Below are positions 3,497-57,942 of a stretch of DNA of 64,000 bases, piece after piece (positions within the stretch are counted from its first letter, which is position 1; every line of letters starts with the position of its first letter). A program made the translations under genes and the position numbers. Source of the stretch: Polyangiaceae bacterium (lineage in GTDB: Bacteria; Myxococcota_A; Polyangia; Polyangiales; Polyangiaceae); contig JABTUA010000001.1 in NCBI GenBank assembly GCA_015075635.1, positions 2,728,001 through 2,792,000 on the forward strand, read 5' to 3'. The notes under the pieces are model-generated. The model made no database searches and was not told the DNA's origin. It was given only the letters and a program-made list of their open reading frames with translations.

Positions 3497-4951
3497 ATGC
3501 GTCTCGTCGCGCTCTTGGCCTGCGCCGCCTGCTCCTGTGCTCCGGCTCCCTCGCCGTCGGTGCCCAATGCGCCGACCTCGGAACCGGTCGCGAGCACCGC
3601 CCCCGATGCGGGCGCGACGGCGGCGGCAGACGCCGTGGCGACCGACACGCACCCGCCCCTGACCTGGATCGAGGACGACGTCCCCGCCGCGCTCGAGCGC
3701 GCGAAGAAGGAAGGCAAGCTCGTCTTCGTCGATACCTGGGCCGAGTGGTGCCACACCTGCATCAGCATGAAGCACTACGTGCTCGACTCGCCGGCCCTGC
3801 GCTCGCTGGGCGAGCACGTGGTGTTCGTGGCGCTGGACACCGAGAAGGAGAAGAACGCGGCGTTCGTCGACAAACACGCCATCGACGTCTGGCCCACGTT
3901 CTTCGTGCTCGACCCCGAGAAGGGCGACGTGCTCGGCTACTGGCCGGGGTCCGGCTCGGTCAAGGAGATGGACGACTTCGTGCGCGAGGCCATCACGGCC
4001 CGCGACGCGCGCCGGGCCGACAAGCTCGACCCCAAATCCCCCCTCGCGGCGCTGCTCGCGGGCAAGAGCGCCCAGTCGCGCTCCGCGTACGACGAGGCGG
4101 CCAAGCACTACAAGACGGCCGTCGAGCGCGCGCCGGCGGACTGGCCCAGGCGCAGCGAGGCCATCGCGGGCTGGGTCAGCGCGCTGTTCAACGCCGGGCG
4201 GGCGGACCAGTGCTTGGAAGCCGGGAACAAACACCTCGGCGAGGTGCGTGGGGCCGCGAAGCCCACCGACATCGCCCGCGTGCTCCTCGACTGCGCCGAG
4301 CACGCCAAAGACGCGCAGAAGCGCAAGGCCGCGCGGGAGGCGGTCAAGGCGCGGCTCAGCGCCATCGCCGCGTCCCCTCACCCCGAGGCCACCCCGGACG
4401 ACCGAGCCGACACGCTCGACGTCTTGGCCGACGTGCTCTCGAGCTTCGGCGACAAGCAAGGCGTGCAGAAGGCGCTGGTCGACCGCCTGGCCATTCTCGA
4501 GCAGGCCTCGAAGGAAGCTCCTACCCCTGCCGCCGCCCAGACCTACGACGCGGCGCTGGCCAACGCCTTCCTGGCGATGGGGCGACCAGCCGACGCCATC
4601 AAGCTGCTCGAGCAGCGCGAGAAGCAGCTGCCGAGCTCCTACGAGCCGCCGGGGCGCCTGGCGGGGGTGCTGCTCGCGCTGAAGAAGTACCCGGAGGCGC
4701 TGGCCGCGGTGGAGCGCGCGCTCAAGCACTCCGAGGGGCCACGCCGGCTGCGCTTCTTGGAGATCAAGGCGGACATCCTGGCGGGCCTGGGCGACCACGC
4801 GGGACAGGTAAAGGCTCTGGAAGACGCCGTGGCCGGCTACGAAGCCCAGGCCAAGCGTCAGGCCGCCAAACCGCAGCGCATGATCACCGCCAAGCGCCGC
4901 CTCGACGCGGCGAAAGCGGAGCTCGCCAAGGTGAAGACAGGCAAACCCTGA
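3497..4951 (+). CDS. Lipoprotein with thioredoxin-fold domain and C-terminal TPR repeats
   Basis: 484 residues. It begins with a short lipoprotein signal (LVALLAC, Cys9) and an Ala/Pro/Thr-rich linker to ~50. A thioredoxin-like domain at ~55-170 carries WAEWCHTC (Cys85/Cys88), the DsbD-gamma/thioredoxin_7 style active site. A long helical region with TPR-like repeats runs from ~190 to 475. It probably works in periplasmic disulfide reduction or as a redox-active scaffold. It lies 36 bases after the PepSY gene on the same strand and could be in that operon, which would fit a periplasmic redox module. The partner is unknown. Confidence 0.85.
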   Translation: MRLVALLACAACSCAPAPSPSVPNAPTSEPVASTAPDAGATAAADAVATDTHPPLTWIEDDVPAALERAKKEGKLVFVDTWAEWCHTCISMKHYVLDSPALRSLGEHVVFVALDTEKEKNAAFVDKHAIDVWPTFFVLDPEKGDVLGYWPGSGSVKEMDDFVREAITARDARRADKLDPKSPLAALLAGKSAQSRSAYDEAAKHYKTAVERAPADWPRRSEAIAGWVSALFNAGRADQCLEAGNKHLGEVRGAAKPTDIARVLLDCAEHAKDAQKRKAAREAVKARLSAIAASPHPEATPDDRADTLDVLADVLSSFGDKQGVQKALVDRLAILEQASKEAPTPAAAQTYDAALANAFLAMGRPADAIKLLEQREKQLPSSYEPPGRLAGVLLALKKYPEALAAVERALKHSEGPRRLRFLEIKADILAGLGDHAGQVKALEDAVAGYEAQAKRQAAKPQRMITAKRRLDAAKAELAKVKTGKP

Positions 4952-5041
4952 GGCGTGGGCGGCGAGCCACGCCTTGGCGGAGCTCTTCGGCGAAAGCTCC
5001 TGGAAATGCCCACGGCACGTGGCTTGCTCCTGGCCTGGACG

Positions 5042-5926
5042 ATGTCCAACGGTCCAAGTCGTCTGTGTATCGTCGTGCTCCCTCTCCTGCTCGGCGCCTG
5101 CGCCTCCTCGACGCCGGCGGCGCCCGCGAAGGTCGCGCCCGCGCCTCCGCTCTCGGCGGCGGGCACGCCCAAGCCTGCAGCAGCTTCGGACTCGAAGCCC
5201 GGCGCCCACGCGGTGCTCTCCACCGGGAGGCGCGCGTTCGTGCTCTCCGCGCCGCTCTCGGGCGTCGAGGTGCAAGGCGAGCGCGAGCTCTTGCCCGGGG
5301 GCTTCGCGCTTCAGGTCGCCACCGGCGCGAAGATCTCACGACGCTTCACTCTGGTCGGCCCCGAGGGACGCTGCAGCGCCCGCGCCACCCGCGCCGTGCG
5401 CTTGAGCCTGGACTTCGGCGGGTACGCTGGCACCTCCCTGCCCGGCCCGAAGCACTCCGGATTCGAGCTCGAGGGCTGCGAGGCGTTGACCCACGACCAC
5501 TCCTTCCTGATCGCCCTCGACGGCGACGACCCCAGCGCCGCGTGGATCCACCCCGCGCACGTTGACGAAGCACAGGGCACCGCCGACCGGCAGCTCGGCG
5601 AGAGCGAGGTGTGGCTGCACCGCTGGGCGCTTCCCGAGGTCGACCAGGAGATCGTGGAGCGCAACGTCCTCCGCTTCGTCACTCCGAGCTGCAGCGAAGA
5701 GCGCCGCGACGTGCTGATCGTGGACGAGCTCGACCACCCCGTCGCACAGCACGCGGGTTTCTACCTGCGGGGCGCGTTACGGACGAAGACCGGCACGCTG
5801 CTCGTACTGATGGGCCACGACGAGCCCGAGGCGCTGCGCATCGTCGAGCTCGGCGCCGCCGACACCCACGTCGCGCTCGATACGCGCCTCGGCCTGTTCC
5901 AGGACGTCGAGCGCGCAGAGTGTTGA
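5042..5926 (+). CDS. Putative lipoprotein of unknown function
   Basis: About 294 residues. The ATG at 5042 was chosen because it gives a textbook lipoprotein signal ending in LLLGAC (Cys at about residue 21); the open frame extends upstream without such a signal. A Pro/Ala-rich linker of ~40 residues follows, then a globular region with several Cys (EGRCSA, EGCEALTH, TPSCSEE). No domain is recognised. The gene follows the thioredoxin-TPR gene by 90 bases on the same strand. Confidence 0.75.
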   Translation: MSNGPSRLCIVVLPLLLGACASSTPAAPAKVAPAPPLSAAGTPKPAAASDSKPGAHAVLSTGRRAFVLSAPLSGVEVQGERELLPGGFALQVATGAKISRRFTLVGPEGRCSARATRAVRLSLDFGGYAGTSLPGPKHSGFELEGCEALTHDHSFLIALDGDDPSAAWIHPAHVDEAQGTADRQLGESEVWLHRWALPEVDQEIVERNVLRFVTPSCSEERRDVLIVDELDHPVAQHAGFYLRGALRTKTGTLLVLMGHDEPEALRIVELGAADTHVALDTRLGLFQDVERAEC

Positions 5927-6013
5927 CGTCCGTCATGCGCTAGGCCCGGAGATCTGGTAGCTTCTCCGGTCACGCGGACGCCGATTTGCGCCGCGCAACC
6001 TGTGGGGTAATTC

Positions 6014-6769
6014 ATGCGTCGATCTTTGGCATTGGGCTTGTTGGTCTCGGCTTGTCTGGTTCCCGGCTGCGGTTCGGATGACGACGGCGGAGGCAGCGGC
6101 GGCAGCGGCGGCAGCGGTACCGGCGGCAGCGGTACCGGCGGCAGCGGTACCGGCGGCAGCGGTACCGGCGGCAGCGGTACCGGCGGCACCGCGGGCAGCG
6201 GTACCGGCGGCGCGGCAGGCAGCGGTACCGGCGGCAGCGCTGGCTCGGCCAGCGGCGGGACCGCTGGCAGCGGCACTGGCGGCGCGGGCACCGGCGGCGC
6301 GGGCACCGGCGGCGCGGGCACCGGCGGCGCCGGCGGCAAGCAAGGCTCGGGTCAGAGCAAGTCTCAGAAGATCGGCGCGGCCGGCGGCAGCATCACCTTC
6401 GAGCTCGTCACGCTGACGATCCCGGCCGGCGCCCTCGCCGCCGACACGGACATCACCATCACCTCGGTGGCGAAAGCCGGCACCGGCGCCTTCCTGTCGC
6501 CAGTATACAAGTTCGACCCGCCGCTCCTGACCTTCTCGAAGCCGGCGCACGTCAAGTTCGCGCTCCCGTCGGCTCCGCCCTCGTCCAGCAACGTCTACTG
6601 GACGACTGACAACAGCACGTCGATGTCCCCGCTCACCACCACCAAGAGCGGCAATGACATCGAGGCCGACATCACCAAGTTCTCGTGCGGCGCGCCCTGC
6701 TATTGCGCCACCGAACCTTGCGCATGCACCGCTCCGGCGCCCGAGTGCCAGAAGGGCGGCAGCGCATAG
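6014..6769 (+). CDS. Lipoprotein with Gly-rich repeat linker and ZU5-like domain
   Basis: 251 residues. The lipoprotein signal ends at LVPGC (Cys19). A ~95-residue linker of GTGGS repeats follows, then ~110 residues with the ZU5-like pattern (GAAGGSITFE, LTIPAGALAADTDITI, a FDPPLLTFSKP stretch). A Cys-rich tail ends it (CGAPCYCATEPCAC). The linker DNA is a nearly perfect 15-base tandem repeat. Likely a surface lipoprotein with the domain held away from the membrane. No partner can be named. Confidence 0.8.
   Translation: MRRSLALGLLVSACLVPGCGSDDDGGGSGGSGGSGTGGSGTGGSGTGGSGTGGSGTGGTAGSGTGGAAGSGTGGSAGSASGGTAGSGTGGAGTGGAGTGGAGTGGAGGKQGSGQSKSQKIGAAGGSITFELVTLTIPAGALAADTDITITSVAKAGTGAFLSPVYKFDPPLLTFSKPAHVKFALPSAPPSSSNVYWTTDNSTSMSPLTTTKSGNDIEADITKFSCGAPCYCATEPCACTAPAPECQKGGSA
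6116..6190 (+). repeat. 15-base tandem repeat coding for GTGGS linker
   Basis: Five consecutive copies of GGTACCGGCGGCAGC, the last with one change, inside the linker of the lipoprotein gene. Copies are identical at synonymous positions, so recent expansion or gene-conversion-like copying is likelier than selection on the protein alone. Confidence 0.9.
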
Positions 6770-6778
6770 GGCAGCGGC

Positions 6779-8002
6779 TCAGCTCATCAAGCTGCGCGCG
6801 ATCTGTGAGATCTGGATCTCGTCCGTGCCGCCGTAGATCTGCAAGACCTTGGCGTCACGGGCGAGCTGCTCCACCTGGTACTCCGACATGTAGCCGTTGC
6901 CGCCGAAGAGCTGCACGGCCTCCAGGGCAACCTCCATCGCGCTCCCTGCGCAGTAGAGCTTGCAAGCCGAGGCCTCCGCGAGCGTCATCGCCTTGCCCGC
7001 GCCCGCCAGCTCGATGATGCGGAACACCAGGTTCTGGATGTTCATGCGCGCGACCTCCATCTTGGCCAGCTTGAGCTGGATCAGCTGAAACTCGCCGATC
7101 GGGCGCCCGAACTGCACGCGCGTCTTGGCGTACTCCACGGACAGATCCAGGCACTGCTGCACGATGCCCAAGGCCATCGCCACCACGCCGGTGCGCTCGG
7201 ACTTGAAGGTGTCCTTGGCGCCGGTGCGGTAGGAGACCTCCTCCGTCTCGCCCAGCAGCCGCTCGCTGTCGACGAACACGTCGCTCAAGAACAGCTCGCC
7301 GGTCGGCGACGAGTGCATGCCCATCTTGCGCAAAGGTTTGGTCTGCTCGAGGCCTTTCATGCCCTTCTCCAGCACGAACGAAAGCACCTTGCGATCCCGC
7401 GGATCGTTGCCCTCGTCGAGCTTGCAGATGAAGACGATGGTGTCCGCCCAGGGCCCGTTCGTGATGAAGGTCTTGTTGCCGTTCAACAGGTAGCCGCCTT
7501 CGACGCGGCGAGCGCTGGCCTTCATCGCCCCGAAAGCGTCCGAGCCGGAGCCTGGCTCGGTGATGGCCCAGGCGCCGATCTTGTCCAGGGTCAGGAGGTC
7601 CTTTGCCCAGCGCTCCTTCTGCCGGAGCGTGCCGCGGCTCATGATGGTGCCGGCGGTCAGGCCCGCGCTGACGCCGAGCGCCGTGACCATACCGGGACTG
7701 TGGCGCGACAGCTCGATGATCGGGATCATCTGCATCGCGGCCATCTCGCCGGCCATCGGGTTCGGCTTGGCCTCCCGCGGCTCGTCGTCGGCAGCGCCCT
7801 TCTTCTCCGCCTTCGCCAGCTCGGCCTCGTAGCGCATCAGCGACATGTCTCGGAGGCCGAAGGTCGCGAACATCTTCCGGAGCACCTCGTAGGGTGGCGT
7901 GTCGCCGTGCTCGAGCTCCTCGCGACGCGGCTTGATCTCCGCCTCCACGAAGCGCCGGAAGGAGTCACGGATGGCCAGGTGTTGTTCGCCCCATTCGATC
8001 AT
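6779..8002 (-). CDS. Acyl-CoA dehydrogenase
   Basis: About 407 residues. FAD-dependent alpha,beta-desaturation of an acyl-CoA. Family marks are AWAITEPGSGSDAFGAMK (FAD/substrate region), RVQFGRPIGEFQ, LFGGNGYMSEY and the C-terminal YGGTDEIQ. The position that holds the catalytic Glu in medium-chain enzymes (YEGT) is Gly here, so the base probably sits elsewhere, as in isovaleryl-CoA dehydrogenase types. The start is set at MIEWGEQH; the longer frame with a TTG start is non-coding in character. It is divergent from a pair of further acyl-CoA dehydrogenases across a 295-base spacer. Substrate unknown. Confidence 0.93.
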   Translation of the reverse strand: MIEWGEQHLAIRDSFRRFVEAEIKPRREELEHGDTPPYEVLRKMFATFGLRDMSLMRYEAELAKAEKKGAADDEPREAKPNPMAGEMAAMQMIPIIELSRHSPGMVTALGVSAGLTAGTIMSRGTLRQKERWAKDLLTLDKIGAWAITEPGSGSDAFGAMKASARRVEGGYLLNGNKTFITNGPWADTIVFICKLDEGNDPRDRKVLSFVLEKGMKGLEQTKPLRKMGMHSSPTGELFLSDVFVDSERLLGETEEVSYRTGAKDTFKSERTGVVAMALGIVQQCLDLSVEYAKTRVQFGRPIGEFQLIQLKLAKMEVARMNIQNLVFRIIELAGAGKAMTLAEASACKLYCAGSAMEVALEAVQLFGGNGYMSEYQVEQLARDAKVLQIYGGTDEIQISQIARSLMS

Positions 8003-39104: not shown

Positions 39105-39499
39105 GCGTGCGCCGCCGCCTGCCGCGCCGGCTGCCCGCCGCGTTCGCTCGCGGGAGCCGGCTCTCCTTCGACCTGGATGACGAAGTGTCGCGTCGCCACC
39201 ACGAGCCCCGCGGCGTCCTCACCGAAGACCGCGTACTCGACCTCGTCGCCGCGCTCGAAGCGGCCGAGGGCGATCTCCCAGTAGCTGTTCGGACCGTCGT
39301 TTCGCACCCAGCGCGCCTTGCGCGTGTCCTGCCAGCGCCGGCCCGTACGCTCTCTGACCTGGAAGGTCGTCCACACGCTCTGACCCGGCGCGACCGGCCA
39401 GGTGCCCACGCACACCACGACTGGCTCCCCCGAGCCGACGCGCTCCGGGCGCCGAGGCGTGTCCTGCTCGAGGTGCCAGACGTGCATCTGCTTGCTCAC
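39101..39499 (-). CDS. Small beta-rich hypothetical protein, middle gene of the Hsp20 operon
   Basis: 132 residues. It overlaps the Hsp20 gene and the M19-like gene by four bases each (ATGA), so all three are translated together. Alternating strand-like segments (EPVVVCVGTWPVAPGQSVWTT, YWEIALGRFERGDEVEYAVFG) look like a small carbohydrate-binding or FN3-type fold, without a precise match. No signal peptide. Function unknown. Confidence 0.72.
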   Translation of the reverse strand: MSKQMHVWHLEQDTPRRPERVGSGEPVVVCVGTWPVAPGQSVWTTFQVRERTGRRWQDTRKARWVRNDGPNSYWEIALGRFERGDEVEYAVFGEDAAGLVVATRHFVIQVEGEPAPASERGGQPARQAAAHA

Positions 39500-39969
39500 T
39501 TGCTCTTGACGTTGATCTGCTTCGGCTGCGCTTCGGGCTTCTTCGGCACCTTCAAGGTCAAGACGCCGTCCTTGAGGTCGGCCTCGACCTTCTCGCCGTC
39601 CACGCCCTCGGGCAGGGTGAACGACCGCACGAAGCTGCCGTAGGAGCGCTCGAAGGTGTAGAAGGTGTCGCCCTTCTCGGACTTCTCGGCCTCGCGCTTG
39701 CCGGAGACGGTCAGCCGGTTCTGGGTCAGCTTGACGTCCAGATCCTCGGCCCTGATCCCGGGCAGATCGGCCTTGAACACGAAGGCGTCCTTGCTCTCCT
39801 TGACCTCGAAGGCTGCGTTGAAACCCAGATCCTCCCCGAACCAGCGAGGAGCAATTTCACCGAAGGGATCCCAGCGCAACACGTCACGCATGGTGCGGAA
39901 TGGATCCCACTCCCGCTCCGGGCGCGTCGATTTGGCCTGAGGTTCCTTGTGAACTGCGATGTTTGCCAT
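39496..39969 (-). CDS. Small heat shock protein, Hsp20 / alpha-crystallin family
   Basis: 157 residues. ATP-independent holdase that keeps unfolded proteins soluble. The N-terminal WDPFRTMRDVL is followed by the alpha-crystallin domain (~50-145): VFKADLPGIRAEDLDVKL, RLTVSGKRE, GSFVRSFTLPEGVD and ADLKDGVLTLKVPKK. The ATG has a GGAG ribosome site. A sigma-54-type promoter lies 41 bases upstream, so induction by a bacterial enhancer-binding protein is likely. It is the first gene of a three-gene operon. Confidence 0.95.
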   Translation of the reverse strand: MANIAVHKEPQAKSTRPEREWDPFRTMRDVLRWDPFGEIAPRWFGEDLGFNAAFEVKESKDAFVFKADLPGIRAEDLDVKLTQNRLTVSGKREAEKSEKGDTFYTFERSYGSFVRSFTLPEGVDGEKVEADLKDGVLTLKVPKKPEAQPKQINVKSK

Positions 39970-40025: not shown

Positions 40026-40170
40026 CCCACATGGCCGGAATTCGGCGACATTGGCCTACGTTTCGCGGCAAAGCCTGCGTGTTTGCTCAGCGCTACGGCA
40101 GGCGTTGCGCGCCGGAGCCGCGCGTCCAGCGGAGATTTGCCCGGGCACGCGCGATGCACCCGAGACCAGC

Positions 40171-41722: not shown

Positions 41723-43618
41723 TCACGCTCGGCGTCGGGAAATGGGCGCCAGGTCGGCCTCGGGGGCCTCGGGCTCGGGGTAGCGCATCTTCACCGAGTA
41801 CACCCCGCTGTCGAGGGTCGTGCGTACCTTCAGGCCGCTCTTGTGGAAGACGCCGAGCATCTTGGCGTTGGTCGAGTGGACCGTGGCGGTGAAGCCGGCG
41901 AGGCCGCGCTCGCGGCCGATCTCGGCCATGCGCCGCATGAGCAGCGTGCCGAGACCCTTGCCCTGCCACTCGTCCCGGACCACGAAGGCGATGTCGGCGA
42001 AGCCGGTGGCCGGATCCACGTCGTAGCGCGCCATGGCCAGGATGTCCGGCGCCGGCCCGGTCTCGTCGCAGACCACCAGGGCCATGTTGCTGGTGTAGTC
42101 CAGGTTCACCAGATCGAGCATCTCTTCGTAAGGGTGGCTCTTCTTGTGCTGCAAGAAGCGCAGGTAGGTGGACTCGCCGGAGAGCCGGTAGAACATGTCC
42201 TGGAGCGTCTCCAGATCCGCCGCGCGCACCGGCCGGACCCTGAGGCGCTTGCCGGCGAGCTCGACCTCGCTCTCTTCCTCCCAGGGGTAGCGAGCGCGCG
42301 ACACCGTCTGATCCACGAACACGTACTTGCGGGCCTTTGCCGCGTTCAAGAGCTCCGCGCGGAAGTCGGGGTGCGCGATCTCCGTCAGCGCCGTGGCGCG
42401 CTCGCGGATGCTCTTGCCCCAGAGGTCGGCGACTCCGAACTCGGTGGCGATGTAGTGCACGTCGCCGCGACTGGTGACGATGCCGGCACCCTCCTCCAGG
42501 CCCGCCTGGATCCGGCTCGCCTTGCCTTCCTTGGCAGTGGAAGGCAGCGCGATGATGGGCTTGCCTCCGCGGCTCCGGGCCGCGCCGCGGATGAAGTCCA
42601 CCTGCCCGCCGATGCCGCTGAAGAAGCGCCCCATCAGCGTGTCGGCCGCGACCTGACCGGTCAGATCCACGGCCAGCGCGCTGTTGATGGCGATCATGTT
42701 GTCGTGGCGCGCGATCACGAACGGGTCGTTGGTGAACTCGCTGGGGCGGAGCTCCACCGCGGGGTTGTCGTGCACCCAGTCGTACAGGCGCTTGCTGCCC
42801 ATCACGAACGAAGTGACGATCTTGCCCGGCAAGAGCGTCTTCTTCTTGCCGGTGATCACCCCGGCCTCGACCAGATCCACGATGCTGTCGGAGAGCATCT
42901 CGGTGTGGACGCCCAGGTCGTGGCGAGTCCGGAGGGCCTCGATCACCGCGTGCGGGATGCGACCGATCCCGGTCTGGAGCGTGGCGCCGTCCGGGATCAG
43001 GCTGGCCACGTGGCGCCCGATGGCGCGGCACACATCGTCGAGCGGCTCGGGCTCGAGCTCGTAGAGCGGGCGGTCCACCGGCACCAGCTTCTCGATGCGC
43101 GACACGTGCACGAACGAGTCCCCGAGCGCGCGCGGCATGTTCGGGTTCACCTCGGCGATCACCAGATCCGCCGAGTCCACCGCCGCGCGCACGATGTCCA
43201 CCGAGACGCCGAGGCTCACGTAGCCGTGCTCGTCCGGCGGCGACACCTGCACCAGCACGACGTCGATGCGCACGCGCCGCGTGCGGATCAGGCTGGGGAT
43301 CTCCGACAGGAACACCGGCATGAAGTCGGCGCGGCCTTCTTGCACCGCCGCGCGCACGTTCTGCCCGATGAAGAACGCGGTATGGCGGAAGCGGTGCTCG
43401 AGCCCCGGCGCGACGTAGGGCGCGGGGCCCAAGGTCAGGAGGTGGACGATTTCGTTGTCCGCCAGGTGATCGCCATGGCTGACCAGCGCCTCGACGAGGC
43501 TAGTGGGCTCGGCGGCCCCGGAGCCGATCAAGATGCGCCGCCCGCGGTGGATGAGCTTCACCGCGGCCTGGGGGGAGGAGATCTTGTCGGCGTAGCGAGT
43601 CTTCCAGTCGGTGGTCAT
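41723..43618 (-). CDS. Acetyl-CoA hydrolase/transferase fused to a GNAT acetyltransferase
   Basis: 631 residues. Residues ~1-430 are an acetyl-CoA hydrolase / CoA-transferase (QVSPPDEHGYVSLGVS, LQTGIGRIPHAVIEALRT, LGVHTEMLSDSIVDL with the Glu-bearing HTEM, RPSEFTNDP). Residues ~460-610 are a GNAT domain with FVVRDEWQGKGLGTLLMRRM, the acetyl-CoA-binding Q/RxxGxG/A motif. The fusion may link acetyl-CoA turnover and lysine acetylation. Starts the transcript for the Usp and NTPase genes. A 209-base spacer with a long inverted repeat lies upstream. Confidence 0.93.
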   Translation of the reverse strand: MTTDWKTRYADKISSPQAAVKLIHRGRRILIGSGAAEPTSLVEALVSHGDHLADNEIVHLLTLGPAPYVAPGLEHRFRHTAFFIGQNVRAAVQEGRADFMPVFLSEIPSLIRTRRVRIDVVLVQVSPPDEHGYVSLGVSVDIVRAAVDSADLVIAEVNPNMPRALGDSFVHVSRIEKLVPVDRPLYELEPEPLDDVCRAIGRHVASLIPDGATLQTGIGRIPHAVIEALRTRHDLGVHTEMLSDSIVDLVEAGVITGKKKTLLPGKIVTSFVMGSKRLYDWVHDNPAVELRPSEFTNDPFVIARHDNMIAINSALAVDLTGQVAADTLMGRFFSGIGGQVDFIRGAARSRGGKPIIALPSTAKEGKASRIQAGLEEGAGIVTSRGDVHYIATEFGVADLWGKSIRERATALTEIAHPDFRAELLNAAKARKYVFVDQTVSRARYPWEEESEVELAGKRLRVRPVRAADLETLQDMFYRLSGESTYLRFLQHKKSHPYEEMLDLVNLDYTSNMALVVCDETGPAPDILAMARYDVDPATGFADIAFVVRDEWQGKGLGTLLMRRMAEIGRERGLAGFTATVHSTNAKMLGVFHKSGLKVRTTLDSGVYSVKMRYPEPEAPEADLAPISRRRA

Positions 43619-43639: not shown

Positions 43640-43764
43640 AGAGAACCGCCAAGACGCCAGCAGGAACGCCAAGTTCGCCAGGACAGCTGACGAGCTCAGA
43701 AATCGGAGATTCAGAAACTTCTGGCTTGGCGAACTTGGCGAGCTTGGCGTCTTGGCGGTTTTCT
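43640..43764. repeat. Long imperfect inverted repeat with GCCAAG units
   Basis: Left arm 43640-43686 and right arm 43718-43764 are near-complementary over ~45 bases; each has three to four copies of CGCCAAG or its complement. The loop is ~31 bases. It lies between the second usp gene and the hydrolase gene, and could be a mobile palindromic element (REP/BIME-like) or a strong RNA hairpin. Confidence 0.85.
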
Positions 43765-43827
43765 GGAGGTGGAAGGGGGTCGCGAGCGAGGTGTGCGCGA
43801 TGGTCAAGGCAAGATCAGAGCCCGATT

Positions 43828-44493
43828 TCAATCCTCCCCACCCAGGCCTGGCAGGCGCTCGCGCGCCCCGGTCATGCGCCCGACGTAGTGGTACACATGG
43901 CGCCGTCCGTGGTGCTCGTGGTGACGCGGGCACCACAGATCCTCGCCCTTGGTCTCCGCGCGCACGCGCACGCAGTCCGGGCAGGGCGGCTCGATCTGCG
44001 CGACCGGCCCGCCCTCCGGCGGACGTACGACCAGCACCGCGCAGGGCGCCAGACGCACGACACCTTCGGCGACCGAGCCGAGCAGGAGCCGCCGCACCCC
44101 GCGCCGGCCGTGCGTGCCGACCACGACCAGGGAGGCCTCGAGGTCGGAGGCCAGCTGCGCGATTTCTTCCGCCGGCGCATCGAGGCGGATGTGCGTGACG
44201 GCGCGCGAGAACGTCCCGAGCTCCTGGGCGGCCCGCTTCTCGACGAACTTGGCGAGCTTCTCCTCGACGTAGGCCTTCAGCTTCTGGCTGGCTTCGTCCA
44301 TGGTCGCGGTCACGATTTCCGCACCTGTGTCCAGGTGGACGAGCGGCCCATAGCCGCGCGCGACGTAGATGACGTGCACTTCGCCGTTCTCCTCGGCGCT
44401 CGCCAGCTCGAAGGCGCGCTCCAGCGCGGTGTTTCCGCTCGGCGCGAAATCGATTCCGACGACGACTAGGTAGGGCTTCTTGGGCGTGGTCAT
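43828..44493 (-). CDS. Universal stress protein with Cys/His-rich C-terminal tail
   Basis: 221 residues. The Usp domain covers ~1-155 (LVVVGIDFAPSGNTALERAF; ATP-binding VVGTHGRRGVRRLLLGSVAEG). A ~65-residue tail has CPDCVRVRAETKGEDLWCPRH then HEHHGRRHVYHY, a probable zinc or haem/metal site not usual in UspA. A sigma-54 promoter match is 55 bases before the ATG. It precedes the hydrolase-Usp-NTPase genes on the same strand. Confidence 0.93.
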   Translation of the reverse strand: MTTPKKPYLVVVGIDFAPSGNTALERAFELASAEENGEVHVIYVARGYGPLVHLDTGAEIVTATMDEASQKLKAYVEEKLAKFVEKRAAQELGTFSRAVTHIRLDAPAEEIAQLASDLEASLVVVGTHGRRGVRRLLLGSVAEGVVRLAPCAVLVVRPPEGGPVAQIEPPCPDCVRVRAETKGEDLWCPRHHEHHGRRHVYHYVGRMTGARERLPGLGGED

Positions 44494-44547: not shown

Positions 44548-44563
44548 TGCAGTGGGCGTGCCA
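44548..44563 (-). promoter_or_regulatory. Sigma-54 (-24/-12) promoter of Usp gene
   Basis: Minus strand TGGCAC-GCCCA-CTGCA: the -24 half is perfect, the -12 half differs at one base from TTGCA, and GG/GC spacing is ten bases. It is 55 bases upstream of the ATG. A palindromic TTGCGCAA lies 40 bases further upstream (44603-44610). Confidence 0.85.
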
Positions 44564-44618
44564 GCGGGTTCGCCGGGAATTGCAAGTGAGTTGCCCGGCG
44601 TGTTGCGCAATCCGTGCG

Positions 44619-47510
44619 TCACTCGGCGGCAGGACGCAAGGGTTGCGGCTGAGCACGAAAAGCCCGTCGAATCGCCTTCTCCGCCTCGCCCACCACCCAG
44701 GTCAGCGCGCAAGCGCCGAGGGCAGCGGCGAGCGTGGCGGGCGGCAGCGGCGTGGTCGAGAAGACCCCGCCCAAGGCTGGCACGTACAGCGCCACCGCCT
44801 GCAGCCCGAGCGCGATGGCGAACGCGCTGAGCAGGCGAGCGTTGGAGAACAGGCCGAGCGTGAACACCGAGTCGCGACGCGAGCGCGCGTTCAGCGCGTG
44901 GAACAAGGGCGCGATGGCGAGCACCGTGAAGGTGGCGCTGCGCGCCAGGGCCAGCGTCTCGCCGGAGGCGCCCAGCACGGGCGGGTGGAAGTACGCGAAG
45001 GTGGCCACGCCGAGCACCGCCATGAAGACTCCGTAGGAGAGCAGCCAGGCGAGCTCCCCGGGCGAGATCAGGCCTTCGCCCTTCGCCCGCGGCGCGCGCT
45101 TCATCGGATCCAGGTGCACCGGCTCCATGCCCAGCGCCAACGCGGGCAAGCCGTTGGTGATCAAGTTGATCCAGAGGATCTGCGTCGGGGTCAGGATCGG
45201 GGGCCACCCCACCGCTGCCGCCGCCAGCACCGCCAGCACCAGCCCCGCGTTCACCGAGAACAGGAACACGATGAAGCGCTTGATGTTGTCGTAGACGACT
45301 CGGCCCTGCTCGATGGCGCCGACGATGGTCGCGTAGTTGTCGTCCAGGAGGACCATGTCAGCGGCCTCGCGCGTGACGTCCGTGCCGCCTCGCCCCATGG
45401 CCACGCCGATGTCGGCGGCCTTGATCGCCGGGGCGTCGTTCACCCCGTCGCCGGTCATCGCCACCACGTGCCCGCGGGCGCGCAGCGCCTCGATCAGGCG
45501 CAGCTTGTTGGCCGCGGTGGCGCGGGCCACAACCCGGATGCGCTCGATCCGCTCCCCGAGCTCTGCGGCGCTCAGCGTGTCGATCTCCGGGCCCGTGATC
45601 ACCTCGCCTTCTTGGGCGTTCAGGATCCCGAGCTCGCGCGCGATGGCCTCGCCGGTCAGCGGATGGTCGCCGGTGATCATGATGGTGCGAACGCCGGCGT
45701 CCCGGGCCTTGGCGAGCGCCAGCGACACCTCCGGCCGCGGCGGATCCGCGATCCCGAGCAGGCCCACCAGCACCATGTCGCGCTCGATCTTCTCGAGCAG
45801 CGCGTCGCGCTCGAGCCGCGTCGCCTCCTCGAGGGAGACGGCACCGGTCTTGGCGCGGGCCACGGCGATGACCCTGAGCCCGAGCGACGCCCACTCCTCG
45901 ACCCGGCGGGAGAGCTCCGCGGCTTCGCTCGGGCCGATTGGGAGCTCTTCGCCGCGCGCGCCCAGCACGTGGCTCGCGCGCCCCAGCACGGCCTCGGGCG
46001 CTCCGTGGGAGTAGCTCACGACTCCGCGCTCGCTGCTGGTCACGACGGTCGCCATCTTGCGCTCGCGGTCGAAGGGGACGACGCGCAGGCTCTCGAGCTG
46101 GCGGCCGGCGGCGGCGAGCTCAGCGCCGTGAGCGAGCCAGATCCGGAGCAAGGCGGCGTCGGTCGGATCGCCGCGCACGCTGCCGTCCTCGGCCACCCGG
46201 GCCGCCGGCGCCGCGATGCACGAGAGCACCAGCTCCGCCAGCGGATCCGCCCCCGAAAAGTCGGGCTCCACGCGGCGCCCGCCCAGCTCCGCGAAGAACG
46301 TCGTCTGCCCGGAGTGCTCGACCTCCAGGCTGCGGCGCCCGACCTCGGCGCGCCGCACCACCATGCGGTTCTGCGTGAGCGTCCCGGTCTTGTCGGTGCA
46401 GATGACGTCGGCAGAGCCCAGCGTCTCGACGGCCGACAGCCGGCGAATGAGCGCGTTCTGCTTGGCCATGCGCTGCACGCCCAGCGCGAGCACGATGGTG
46501 GTGACGGCCGGCAGGCCCTCCGGAATCGCGGCCACCGCCAGGCTGACGCCGGTGAGCAAGAGGAACCCGATGGGCGCCTCCAGGCGCACCGCACCGACCG
46601 CGAACACGAGCAAGCCGAGCAGCGCAGAGGCGATCACGACCTTGGTGCCGAAGCGGTGCAGGCTCTTCTGAAGCGGCGTGTCCTCCGCGGCGACGCCCCC
46701 GAGCAGCTCGGCGATCTGCCCGAGCTCGGTGCGCATTCCGGTCGCGACGACCAGCGCCCGGGCGCGCCCGCGCGCGACGTGCGTGCCGTAGAACACCATG
46801 TTCGCGCGCTCCGCCAGCGGTGTGGTCGGGTCGAGCAGCCCCACCTCGAGCTTGTCCACCGGGACGGACTCGCCGGTCAGCGCGGACTCGTCCACCACGG
46901 CGTCACTGGTCTCGGTCAGGCGCCCGTCGGCGGGGACGCGATCGCCCTCCCCGAGCTCGATCACGTCGCCGACCACCAGCGTGTGCGCGGGAACCCGCTC
47001 CACCGTGCCGCCCCGCAGCACCTTGGCCACCGGGGCGCCGAGGGCGCGGAGCGCTCTGAGCGCCCGCTCCGCCTTGCGCTGCTGCGCGAACCCGACCAGC
47101 GCGTTGAGCACGACGATGATGCCGATGGCGATCGCGTCGCCGAAGCGGTGCAGAAATGACGCGGACTCTCGCTCCTTCCAGCCGAGCGCGACCGCGACCA
47201 GGGCCGCCGCGATCAACGCGAGCACCGTCACGTCGGCGAACTGACCGAGGAAGAGCACGAGCGGGGACGGCGGCGGCTTCTCCGCCAGCTCGTTGGGCCC
47301 ATCGCGGGCCAGGCGGCGCCGCGCTTCCTCGCTCGAGAGCCCGGACGCGAGATCCGAGCCGAGCCGCGCGGCGACCTCCTCCGGGGGCTCGGCGATCCAC
47401 GCCGAGGCGGCAGATTGTTCCGAATGGGCACGGCGACCGACCGAGAGGGGCTCCCCCTTGCCCGCCTCCAAAGAGCGCAGGGGCTGCGTCGCAGCGCTGC
47501 CAGGGCGCAC
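44619..47510 (-). CDS. P2-type cation-transporting ATPase (CtpF / Ca2+-ATPase-like)
   Basis: About 963 residues. ATP-driven cation export across the inner membrane. It has an N-terminal cation_ATPase_N region, actuator LTGES, the ion-site run AAIPEGLPAVTTIV, phosphorylated Asp373 in CTDKTGTLTQNRM, MITGDHPLTG and MTGDGVNDAPAIKAADIG, and ~10 membrane spans. The lack of CPC rules out a copper type; PEGLP fits Ca2+/Mn2+ pumps. The start is uncertain: GTG 47510, GTG 47528 and TTG 47471 are possible. It is divergent from the cbb3 operon. Mycobacterial CtpF of this group is a DosR-regulon member. Confidence 0.93.
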   Translation of the reverse strand: MRPGSAATQPLRSLEAGKGEPLSVGRRAHSEQSAASAWIAEPPEEVAARLGSDLASGLSSEEARRRLARDGPNELAEKPPPSPLVLFLGQFADVTVLALIAAALVAVALGWKERESASFLHRFGDAIAIGIIVVLNALVGFAQQRKAERALRALRALGAPVAKVLRGGTVERVPAHTLVVGDVIELGEGDRVPADGRLTETSDAVVDESALTGESVPVDKLEVGLLDPTTPLAERANMVFYGTHVARGRARALVVATGMRTELGQIAELLGGVAAEDTPLQKSLHRFGTKVVIASALLGLLVFAVGAVRLEAPIGFLLLTGVSLAVAAIPEGLPAVTTIVLALGVQRMAKQNALIRRLSAVETLGSADVICTDKTGTLTQNRMVVRRAEVGRRSLEVEHSGQTTFFAELGGRRVEPDFSGADPLAELVLSCIAAPAARVAEDGSVRGDPTDAALLRIWLAHGAELAAAGRQLESLRVVPFDRERKMATVVTSSERGVVSYSHGAPEAVLGRASHVLGARGEELPIGPSEAAELSRRVEEWASLGLRVIAVARAKTGAVSLEEATRLERDALLEKIERDMVLVGLLGIADPPRPEVSLALAKARDAGVRTIMITGDHPLTGEAIARELGILNAQEGEVITGPEIDTLSAAELGERIERIRVVARATAANKLRLIEALRARGHVVAMTGDGVNDAPAIKAADIGVAMGRGGTDVTREAADMVLLDDNYATIVGAIEQGRVVYDNIKRFIVFLFSVNAGLVLAVLAAAAVGWPPILTPTQILWINLITNGLPALALGMEPVHLDPMKRAPRAKGEGLISPGELAWLLSYGVFMAVLGVATFAYFHPPVLGASGETLALARSATFTVLAIAPLFHALNARSRRDSVFTLGLFSNARLLSAFAIALGLQAVALYVPALGGVFSTTPLPPATLAAALGACALTWVVGEAEKAIRRAFRAQPQPLRPAAE

Positions 47511-47659
47511 CGCTTGCGCGGGCGGCACCGGCGGCGGCGGGCTCCCTACGCTGTTAGTCGGCGCGGTACGCGGAGGCACTCTCTGCGATCCTGCAAGAAC
47601 GGGACGCGCGTTCCGGCCGTACGCCCGCCAAGACGGTGAAGTCGCGGAAATCGCGCGAT

Positions 47660-56403: not shown

Positions 56404-56490
56404 CGACGCAAATTCGGCGTCGCCCGGAGGCCAGACGCAATTTTCGCGCAATCGCCCCGGTCCTGTGCTGGAATTGTCGGGAAATTGCCC

Positions 56491-56532: not shown

Positions 56533-57942
<1,410 letters not shown>

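Follow-up and report, generated by a model that had tools for sequence, protein, structure and literature searches.

The window analyzed here is a 64-kb stretch (64,000 nucleotides) of the genome of a Polyangiaceae bacterium, a soil bacterium and kin of the myxobacteria. It encodes a universal stress protein (Usp) with a Cys/His tail, located close to genes for a cation-transporting ATPase, a cbb3 oxidase and an NtrC-type regulator.

43828..44493, minus strand: tailed universal stress protein gene, an open reading frame with an ATG start encoding 221 amino acids
44023..44493, minus strand: Usp domain, residues 1-157, from Pfam PF00582 and the loop read from the sequence
43828..44022, minus strand: C-terminal tail, residues 158-221 (64 residues, stop included), kept in relatives and without a confident family match
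43921..43983, minus strand: predicted Cys3-His metal site formed by C171, C174, C188 and H191, invariant and at fixed spacing
41723..43618, minus strand: acetyl-CoA hydrolase/transferase-GNAT fusion (Pfam), downstream, by Usp genes, an order kept in the congeners L001 and L002
44619..47510, minus strand: cation-transporting P-type ATPase (Pfam), upstream, an order likewise kept in L001 and L002
47716..49926, plus strand: cbb3 oxidase CcoN-CcoO as a single open reading frame of 736 amino acids (Pfam COX1 and FixO)
56533..57942, plus strand: NtrC-type response regulator (Pfam) with a GAYTGA loop, the proposed NmpR counterpart

The original prediction described a Usp domain followed by a Cys/His tail of about 65 residues, and the reading frame agrees: the 64-residue tail contains the motifs CPDC (residues 171-174), CPRHH (188-192) and HHGRRH (194-199). 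A Shine-Dalgarno-like GAGGAG can be read ahead of the ATG. The match to the Pfam Usp family (PF00582) covers residues 10-157 and profile positions 5-141 of 141, scoring 99.8 bits where the cut-off is 24, which places the protein in the family by the curated cut-off across the domain. The translation also contains the loop G126-x2-G129-x9-G139-S140; the pattern G-x2-G-x9-G-(S/T) is given as the nucleotide loop of ATP-binding Usps in the accessible part of PMC3673472. By domain and loop pattern, we predict that the product is a nucleotide-binding-type Usp that binds nucleotide and forms a dimer. In its domain, loop and fold the protein matches single-domain ATP-type Usps (PF00582; UspFG type, MJ0577), whereas the Cys/His tail is an addition that is not covered by any matching solved relative. 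Downstream of the gene, a long inverted repeat rich in CTTGGCG/CGCCAAG was seen by eye at positions 43640-43770, and a near copy of one of its arms occurs at C2:2222884; it is perhaps a terminator or a small mobile repeat.

The tail was claimed to lie outside the Usp fold, and this is supported: the Pfam Usp match ends at residue 157, and searches with the tail gave no confident family match. Searched alone, the tail had zero matches above cut-off in NCBIfam, and its best Pfam match (12.5 bits, E 0.14) fell below the cut-off. When all 29 tails of an alignment were searched against Pfam, the best match, to a DUF, had an E of 0.0049 and occurred in two of the 29, and a profile of these tails matched no solved structure in the PDB even at E 10. 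Because no described zinc-binding family or structure was matched over cut-off by Pfam, NCBIfam or the PDB profile search, such families were rejected as candidates, and we assign the tail to no named zinc family. A scan of titles and abstract openings of open papers, with subscription journals mostly outside its scope, found no description of a zinc-type tail on a Usp. The tailed protein resembles the Usp fusions listed in PMC3673472 (tandem Usp, kinase and permease) in joining a Usp domain to an extra module; however, the modules named in the accessible part of that source include no zinc-type tail.

The original prediction staked the tail on its conservation in other myxobacteria. Using the tail as a query (E ≤0.001), we found matches in 31 of 59 relatives and in 92 of the 317 genomes of the class Polyangia. 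With the best 16 candidates per genome scored, the 29-tail profile matched at least 36 of 377 genomes across the phylum; 35 of these lie within the same class or nearer, and G283 is a weak partial match outside the class. A short-pattern scan of all species genomes returned four tail loci, all myxobacterial, and a search of plasmids returned no copies at E 1. Mean column identity in the 29-tail alignment is 40%, and only C171, C174, C188 and H191 are invariant, with Gly183 and Trp187 at 90%. The same four residues stand out in a larger set of 59 distinct copies, which are the better matches from tail-based searches with duplicates dropped. The spacing C-x2-C-x13-C-x2-H has constant length in 59 of 59 copies, and W187 and G183 are each present in 56. 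H199 and H195, which together with H191 are spaced four residues apart, occur in 53 and 51 copies, respectively. H192 and H194 are variable, as is the rest of the His-rich stretch. Conservation supports the metal-like character first attributed to the Cys/His set for the four invariant ligands and does not fully extend to the doubled histidines. The Usp loop signature precedes the tail in 52 of the 59 copies by a strict pattern; of the seven copies that fail it, six are Usp ends by eye, and the remaining one (L034) is a fragment that lies behind a stop. L034 and L033 (genomes G013 and G031) are tailed Usps whose match frame contains a stop, and these genes may be decaying or mis-assembled.

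Because these copies were found through the tail, we made an independent check in which proteins were selected by their Usp domain alone, taking the best match in each of 30 genomes. The tail with all four ligands was present in 22 of these proteins and absent from eight, indicating that the wider Usp group can do without the site. Several of the eight have a similar linker followed by a different ending. The tailless Usps L116, L118, L119 and L125 share another tail, which ends in SHI(A/S)(G/Y)LI and follows a similar linker without Cys. Comparison of the window with L001 gave a dN of 0.061 and a dS of 0.651 for residues 158-205 (dN/dS about 0.09), a dN of 0.074 and a dS of 0.844 for the Usp part, and a dN of 0.194 and a dS of 0.55 for the last 16 residues. 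Up to about residue 205, the tail is therefore under a constraint similar to that on the Usp domain. Purifying selection acts on the tail core, and the tail is real and selected, as read from these substitution rates; conservation and dN/dS together rule out a chance or shadow-ORF origin.

Two x2 pairs of Cys or His, 13 residues apart and fixed in spacing, are the usual form of a structural zinc or other metal site. Given their invariance and fixed spacing in all 59 copies, C171, C174, C188 and H191 look like one Cys3-His zinc-type site. The tail is like the Cys3-His zinc knuckles and zinc ribbons in its two pairs and its conserved Trp and Gly; it is unlike them in having no family match, either in Pfam or by PDB profile. 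An AlphaFold model with five sequences behind it has a pLDDT of about 80-90 over most of residues 11-120 and of 42 around residues 131-140. In the tail of the same five-sequence model, pLDDT is ~60-70 near the ligands and 30-40 past residue 200. Short helices at residues 172-180 and 189-192 lie in this low-confidence region and were given no weight, and the model was dropped as a guide to the tail fold because of its low confidence. The best Foldseek matches to the model are Usp folds, and the aligned stretches of the best solved relatives stop at query residues 156-168. According to the accessible part of PMC3673472, most known Usps dimerize through an interface made by their last strand and helix; from this we infer that the tail would exit each chain beside that interface.

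The region upstream of the gene resembles promoters under the control of NmpR in M. xanthus. As described in the portion of PMC11841059 available, a protoglobin kinase begins a relay of which NmpR is the last member, and NmpR binds paired GCGCA-N5-TGCGC boxes, mostly 14-15 bp apart. Together with sigma-54, NmpR raises the expression of genes encoding a Usp, a CBS protein and a P-type ATPase along with cbb3 oxidase, HemN and hemerythrin genes (PMC11841059, same portion). The corresponding elements in the window are as follows.

44549..44563, minus strand: sigma-54-like -24/-12 element TGGCACGCCCACTGC, with one mismatch, 55 nt before the ATG
44605..44619, minus strand: proximal NmpR-like box (GCGCA-N5-TGCGC), with one mismatch, nearer the sigma-54-like site
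44634..44648, minus strand: distal NmpR-like box, with two mismatches (core exact, outer bases differing), 14 bp from the proximal box
47475..47519, plus strand: second exact NmpR-like pair, in front of ccoNO, from the core-pair scan
40067..40109, minus strand: NmpR-like pair with two core mismatches, upstream of an Hsp20 gene (39496-39969, Hsp20 by Pfam)
56407..56448, plus strand: NmpR-like pair with two core mismatches, upstream of the NtrC-type regulator and also present in L001 and L002

The tailed Usp gene thus has two boxes upstream at a spacing that is bound in M. xanthus, as reported in the accessible part of PMC11841059. TGGCACGCCCACTGC begins 70 nt before the ATG, in the same orientation and between the boxes and the start, although the sigma-54-like pattern by itself is not above chance across the 64-kb window. 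Across the 9.47-Mb genome there are six exact core pairs, compared to zero for a backwards control. The six sites lie before this gene, before ccoNO, between two CBS genes at a protoglobin-kinase locus, before another CBS gene and at two other places, and all six have a sigma-54-like site with ≤2 mismatches between the pair and a start codon. In both congeners, the pair (with one core mismatch) and the sigma-54-like site are kept, at the same distance to within 3 nt. Elsewhere in the genome, exact core pairs at L092:2784-2826 and L093:3266-3307 precede a 203-residue lipoprotein-like open reading frame and a 67-residue one without a Pfam match, respectively; judged by these pairs, both are possible new low-oxygen genes. 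At L096, a tandem Usp (1-1378) and a divergent open reading frame (1549-2457) share an NmpR-like pair with one core mismatch and sigma-54-like sites.

We extended the promoter scan to the family by examining 57 upstream stretches, each of 350 nt, from tailed Usp genes. Sigma-54-like sites with ≤1 mismatch were present in 22 of 57 stretches, compared to four of 57 on the antisense strand, three of 55 further upstream, and a mean of 0.55 (largest 3) in 100 shuffled sets. When ≤2 mismatches were allowed, the counts were 38 of 57, compared to 13 antisense and nine of 55 further upstream; shuffled sets averaged 4.82. NmpR-like pairs with ≤1 core mismatch were found in six of 57 stretches, of which three belong to a single genus (0 of 55 further upstream; shuffle 0.02), and pairs with ≤2 core mismatches in 13 of 57 (2 of 55; shuffle 0.26). 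Core-to-core gaps of 5-7 nt were also raised (3 and 10), and other gaps gave lower counts (0-2 and 1-4). The exact pair had 34 matches in 15 genomes among the 59 relatives, compared to eight for the control, and five of the 34 form one tandem array. Taken with the counts within the genus, these numbers indicate that the pair signal is strong in the bacterium's own genus and weaker outside it. An FNR-type box was rejected as the oxygen-regulatory element: the window contains 11 matches with ≤2 mismatches (shuffle mean 2.58), none of them before the tailed Usp gene.

The genome also encodes the parts of a putative low-oxygen relay, namely a protoglobin kinase, a hybrid kinase, a receiver protein and an NtrC-type regulator. 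At one locus, L090, the order of transcription is CBS, two Usps, protoglobin kinase, receiver protein, hybrid kinase, regulator and Usp. The protoglobin kinase (6317-7489) is NmpU-like, the receiver protein spans 5527-6270, the hybrid kinase (4092-5516) has receiver, PAS, HisKA and ATPase domains, and the locus has an exact NmpR-like pair. The regulator at this locus (L090:2657-3946; C3, about 1.677 Mb) has no GAFTGA loop, and by eye an Arg replaces its Walker Lys. It is 43% identical overall to the regulator at 56533-57942, with a nearly identical DNA-binding end, and on this resemblance it may compete with that regulator for the boxes. Homologues of the 56533-57942 product adjoin NmpU-, NmpT- and NmpS-like genes in L145 (76%) and L148 (71%). 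On the basis of this setting and of the GAYTGA loop, we take the gene at 56533-57942 to be probably the NmpR counterpart. In L148, a tailed Usp gene is divergent from the NmpU-T-S-like run and regulator, with a Usp gene and then cbb3 genes on its other side; in L147, a tailed Usp gene lies near P-type ATPase and cbb3 genes.

An oxygen link was also part of the original prediction, and regulation and neighbourhood support it. However, tailless Usps share this setting, and there is no sign that the tail itself senses anything. In a comparison of 20 tailed Usp loci with 20 tailless ones from relatives at E 1e-6, a threshold at which other kinds of kinases and regulators are counted, an NmpU query matched nine tailed and seven tailless loci, and a regulator query matched eight of each. 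Some tailless Usp genes of the same genome carry the same promoter signals. P-type ATPase (4 versus 0), CcoG (3 versus 0) and cbb3 genes (3 versus 1) lean to the tailed loci. These excesses are too few, and Nmp-like genes are about equally frequent at tailless loci, so neighbourhood was rejected as a tail-specific clue. Since tailless Usps share the low-oxygen setting, regulation says nothing on the role of the tail. A similar comparison can be made with M. xanthus MXAN_3966, which is likewise a predicted ATP-binding Usp with an NmpR-type paired box and a sigma-54-like site. Unlike the protein studied here, it is described as a single-domain Usp, and the accessible part of PMC11841059 mentions no metal tail.

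We favor, with moderate confidence, a reading in which this is a Polyangia Usp with a zinc-knuckle-like tail, induced at low oxygen by NmpR-type sigma-54 control, whose tail is a zinc-held docking or dimer-stabilizing module. For the expression part of this reading, a zinc-knuckle Usp is probably made at low oxygen under such control. Falling oxygen would act through a protoglobin kinase relay (NmpU-S-T-like) on an NmpR-like NtrC-type regulator, probably the product of 56533-57942. Once activated, the regulator would bind the paired boxes at 44605-44648 and drive sigma-54 transcription of the tailed Usp gene, and the cbb3 oxidase, Hsp20 and CBS genes would be driven together with it. The Usp would dimerize via its last strand, where the tail starts, and the tail would fold round one Zn(II) held by C171, C174, C188 and H191. 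We infer zinc as the metal and docking or dimer stabilization as the role, such that the ATP-charged Usp would act on a partner through the tail.

Alternatively, the tail could be a redox switch in which zinc is held at low oxygen and reoxygenation causes zinc loss and a C171-C174 disulfide, turning the Usp off or on. We consider this unlikely: zinc-thiolate-like ligands with a CxxC, in a protein placed in a low-oxygen gene set by promoter and neighbourhood, would suit a switch, but sequence cannot tell a labile from a structural site, and the conserved Trp and Gly (56 of 59 copies each) fit a folded structural knuckle equally. Less likely again is a specific form of this idea, in which a new zinc-thiolate module reads reoxygenation, the NmpR-made protein being active with zinc bound in hypoxia until oxidation of C171, C174 and C188 switches it; if this were true, one protein would join energy (ATP) and redox state. 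It is more doubtful still that the tail is metal-free and that its conserved Cys and His serve protein contact or a thiol function. No structural relative was found, and a similar linker lacking Cys is present in some close Usps, but all 59 copies share precisely four invariant residues, arranged as two x2 pairs with 13 residues between them, which is the usual form of a metal site. A metal store or chaperone, carrying copper or zinc on a His-rich tail, for example for the adjoining cbb3 oxidase and copper ATPase, is very improbable. The tail does have a His-rich stretch (191-202), and the window does contain cbb3 genes and an HMA-domain heavy-metal ATPase (Pfam), but H192 and H194 are variable, and cbb3 genes (three of 20) and copper ATPases (five of 20, several of them weak matches) lie near few tailed loci. 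Least probable is the haem sensor of the original prediction or an iron-sulfur equivalent, in which the CP motifs or the Cys3-His set would bind haem or [2Fe-2S] and read oxygen: C-P is present at C171 and, within the genus, at C188, and in NEET-type proteins [2Fe-2S] can be bound by Cys3-His ligands, but conservation does not fall on the CP pairs (Pro follows C171 in 44 of 59 copies and C188 in only five, where the residue is mostly Ala or Glu), and the pathway's likely haem-based oxygen sensor is the separate protoglobin kinase.

Usps are found nearly everywhere, and their molecular action is mostly unknown. A Usp class that spans the lineage, carries a strictly conserved metal-type module and stands beside a low-oxygen signalling system offers a concrete handle on how Usps act. 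The promoter and relay genes described here also extend the NmpR low-oxygen regulon of M. xanthus, by prediction, to the class Polyangia, with a likely regulator and its targets named.
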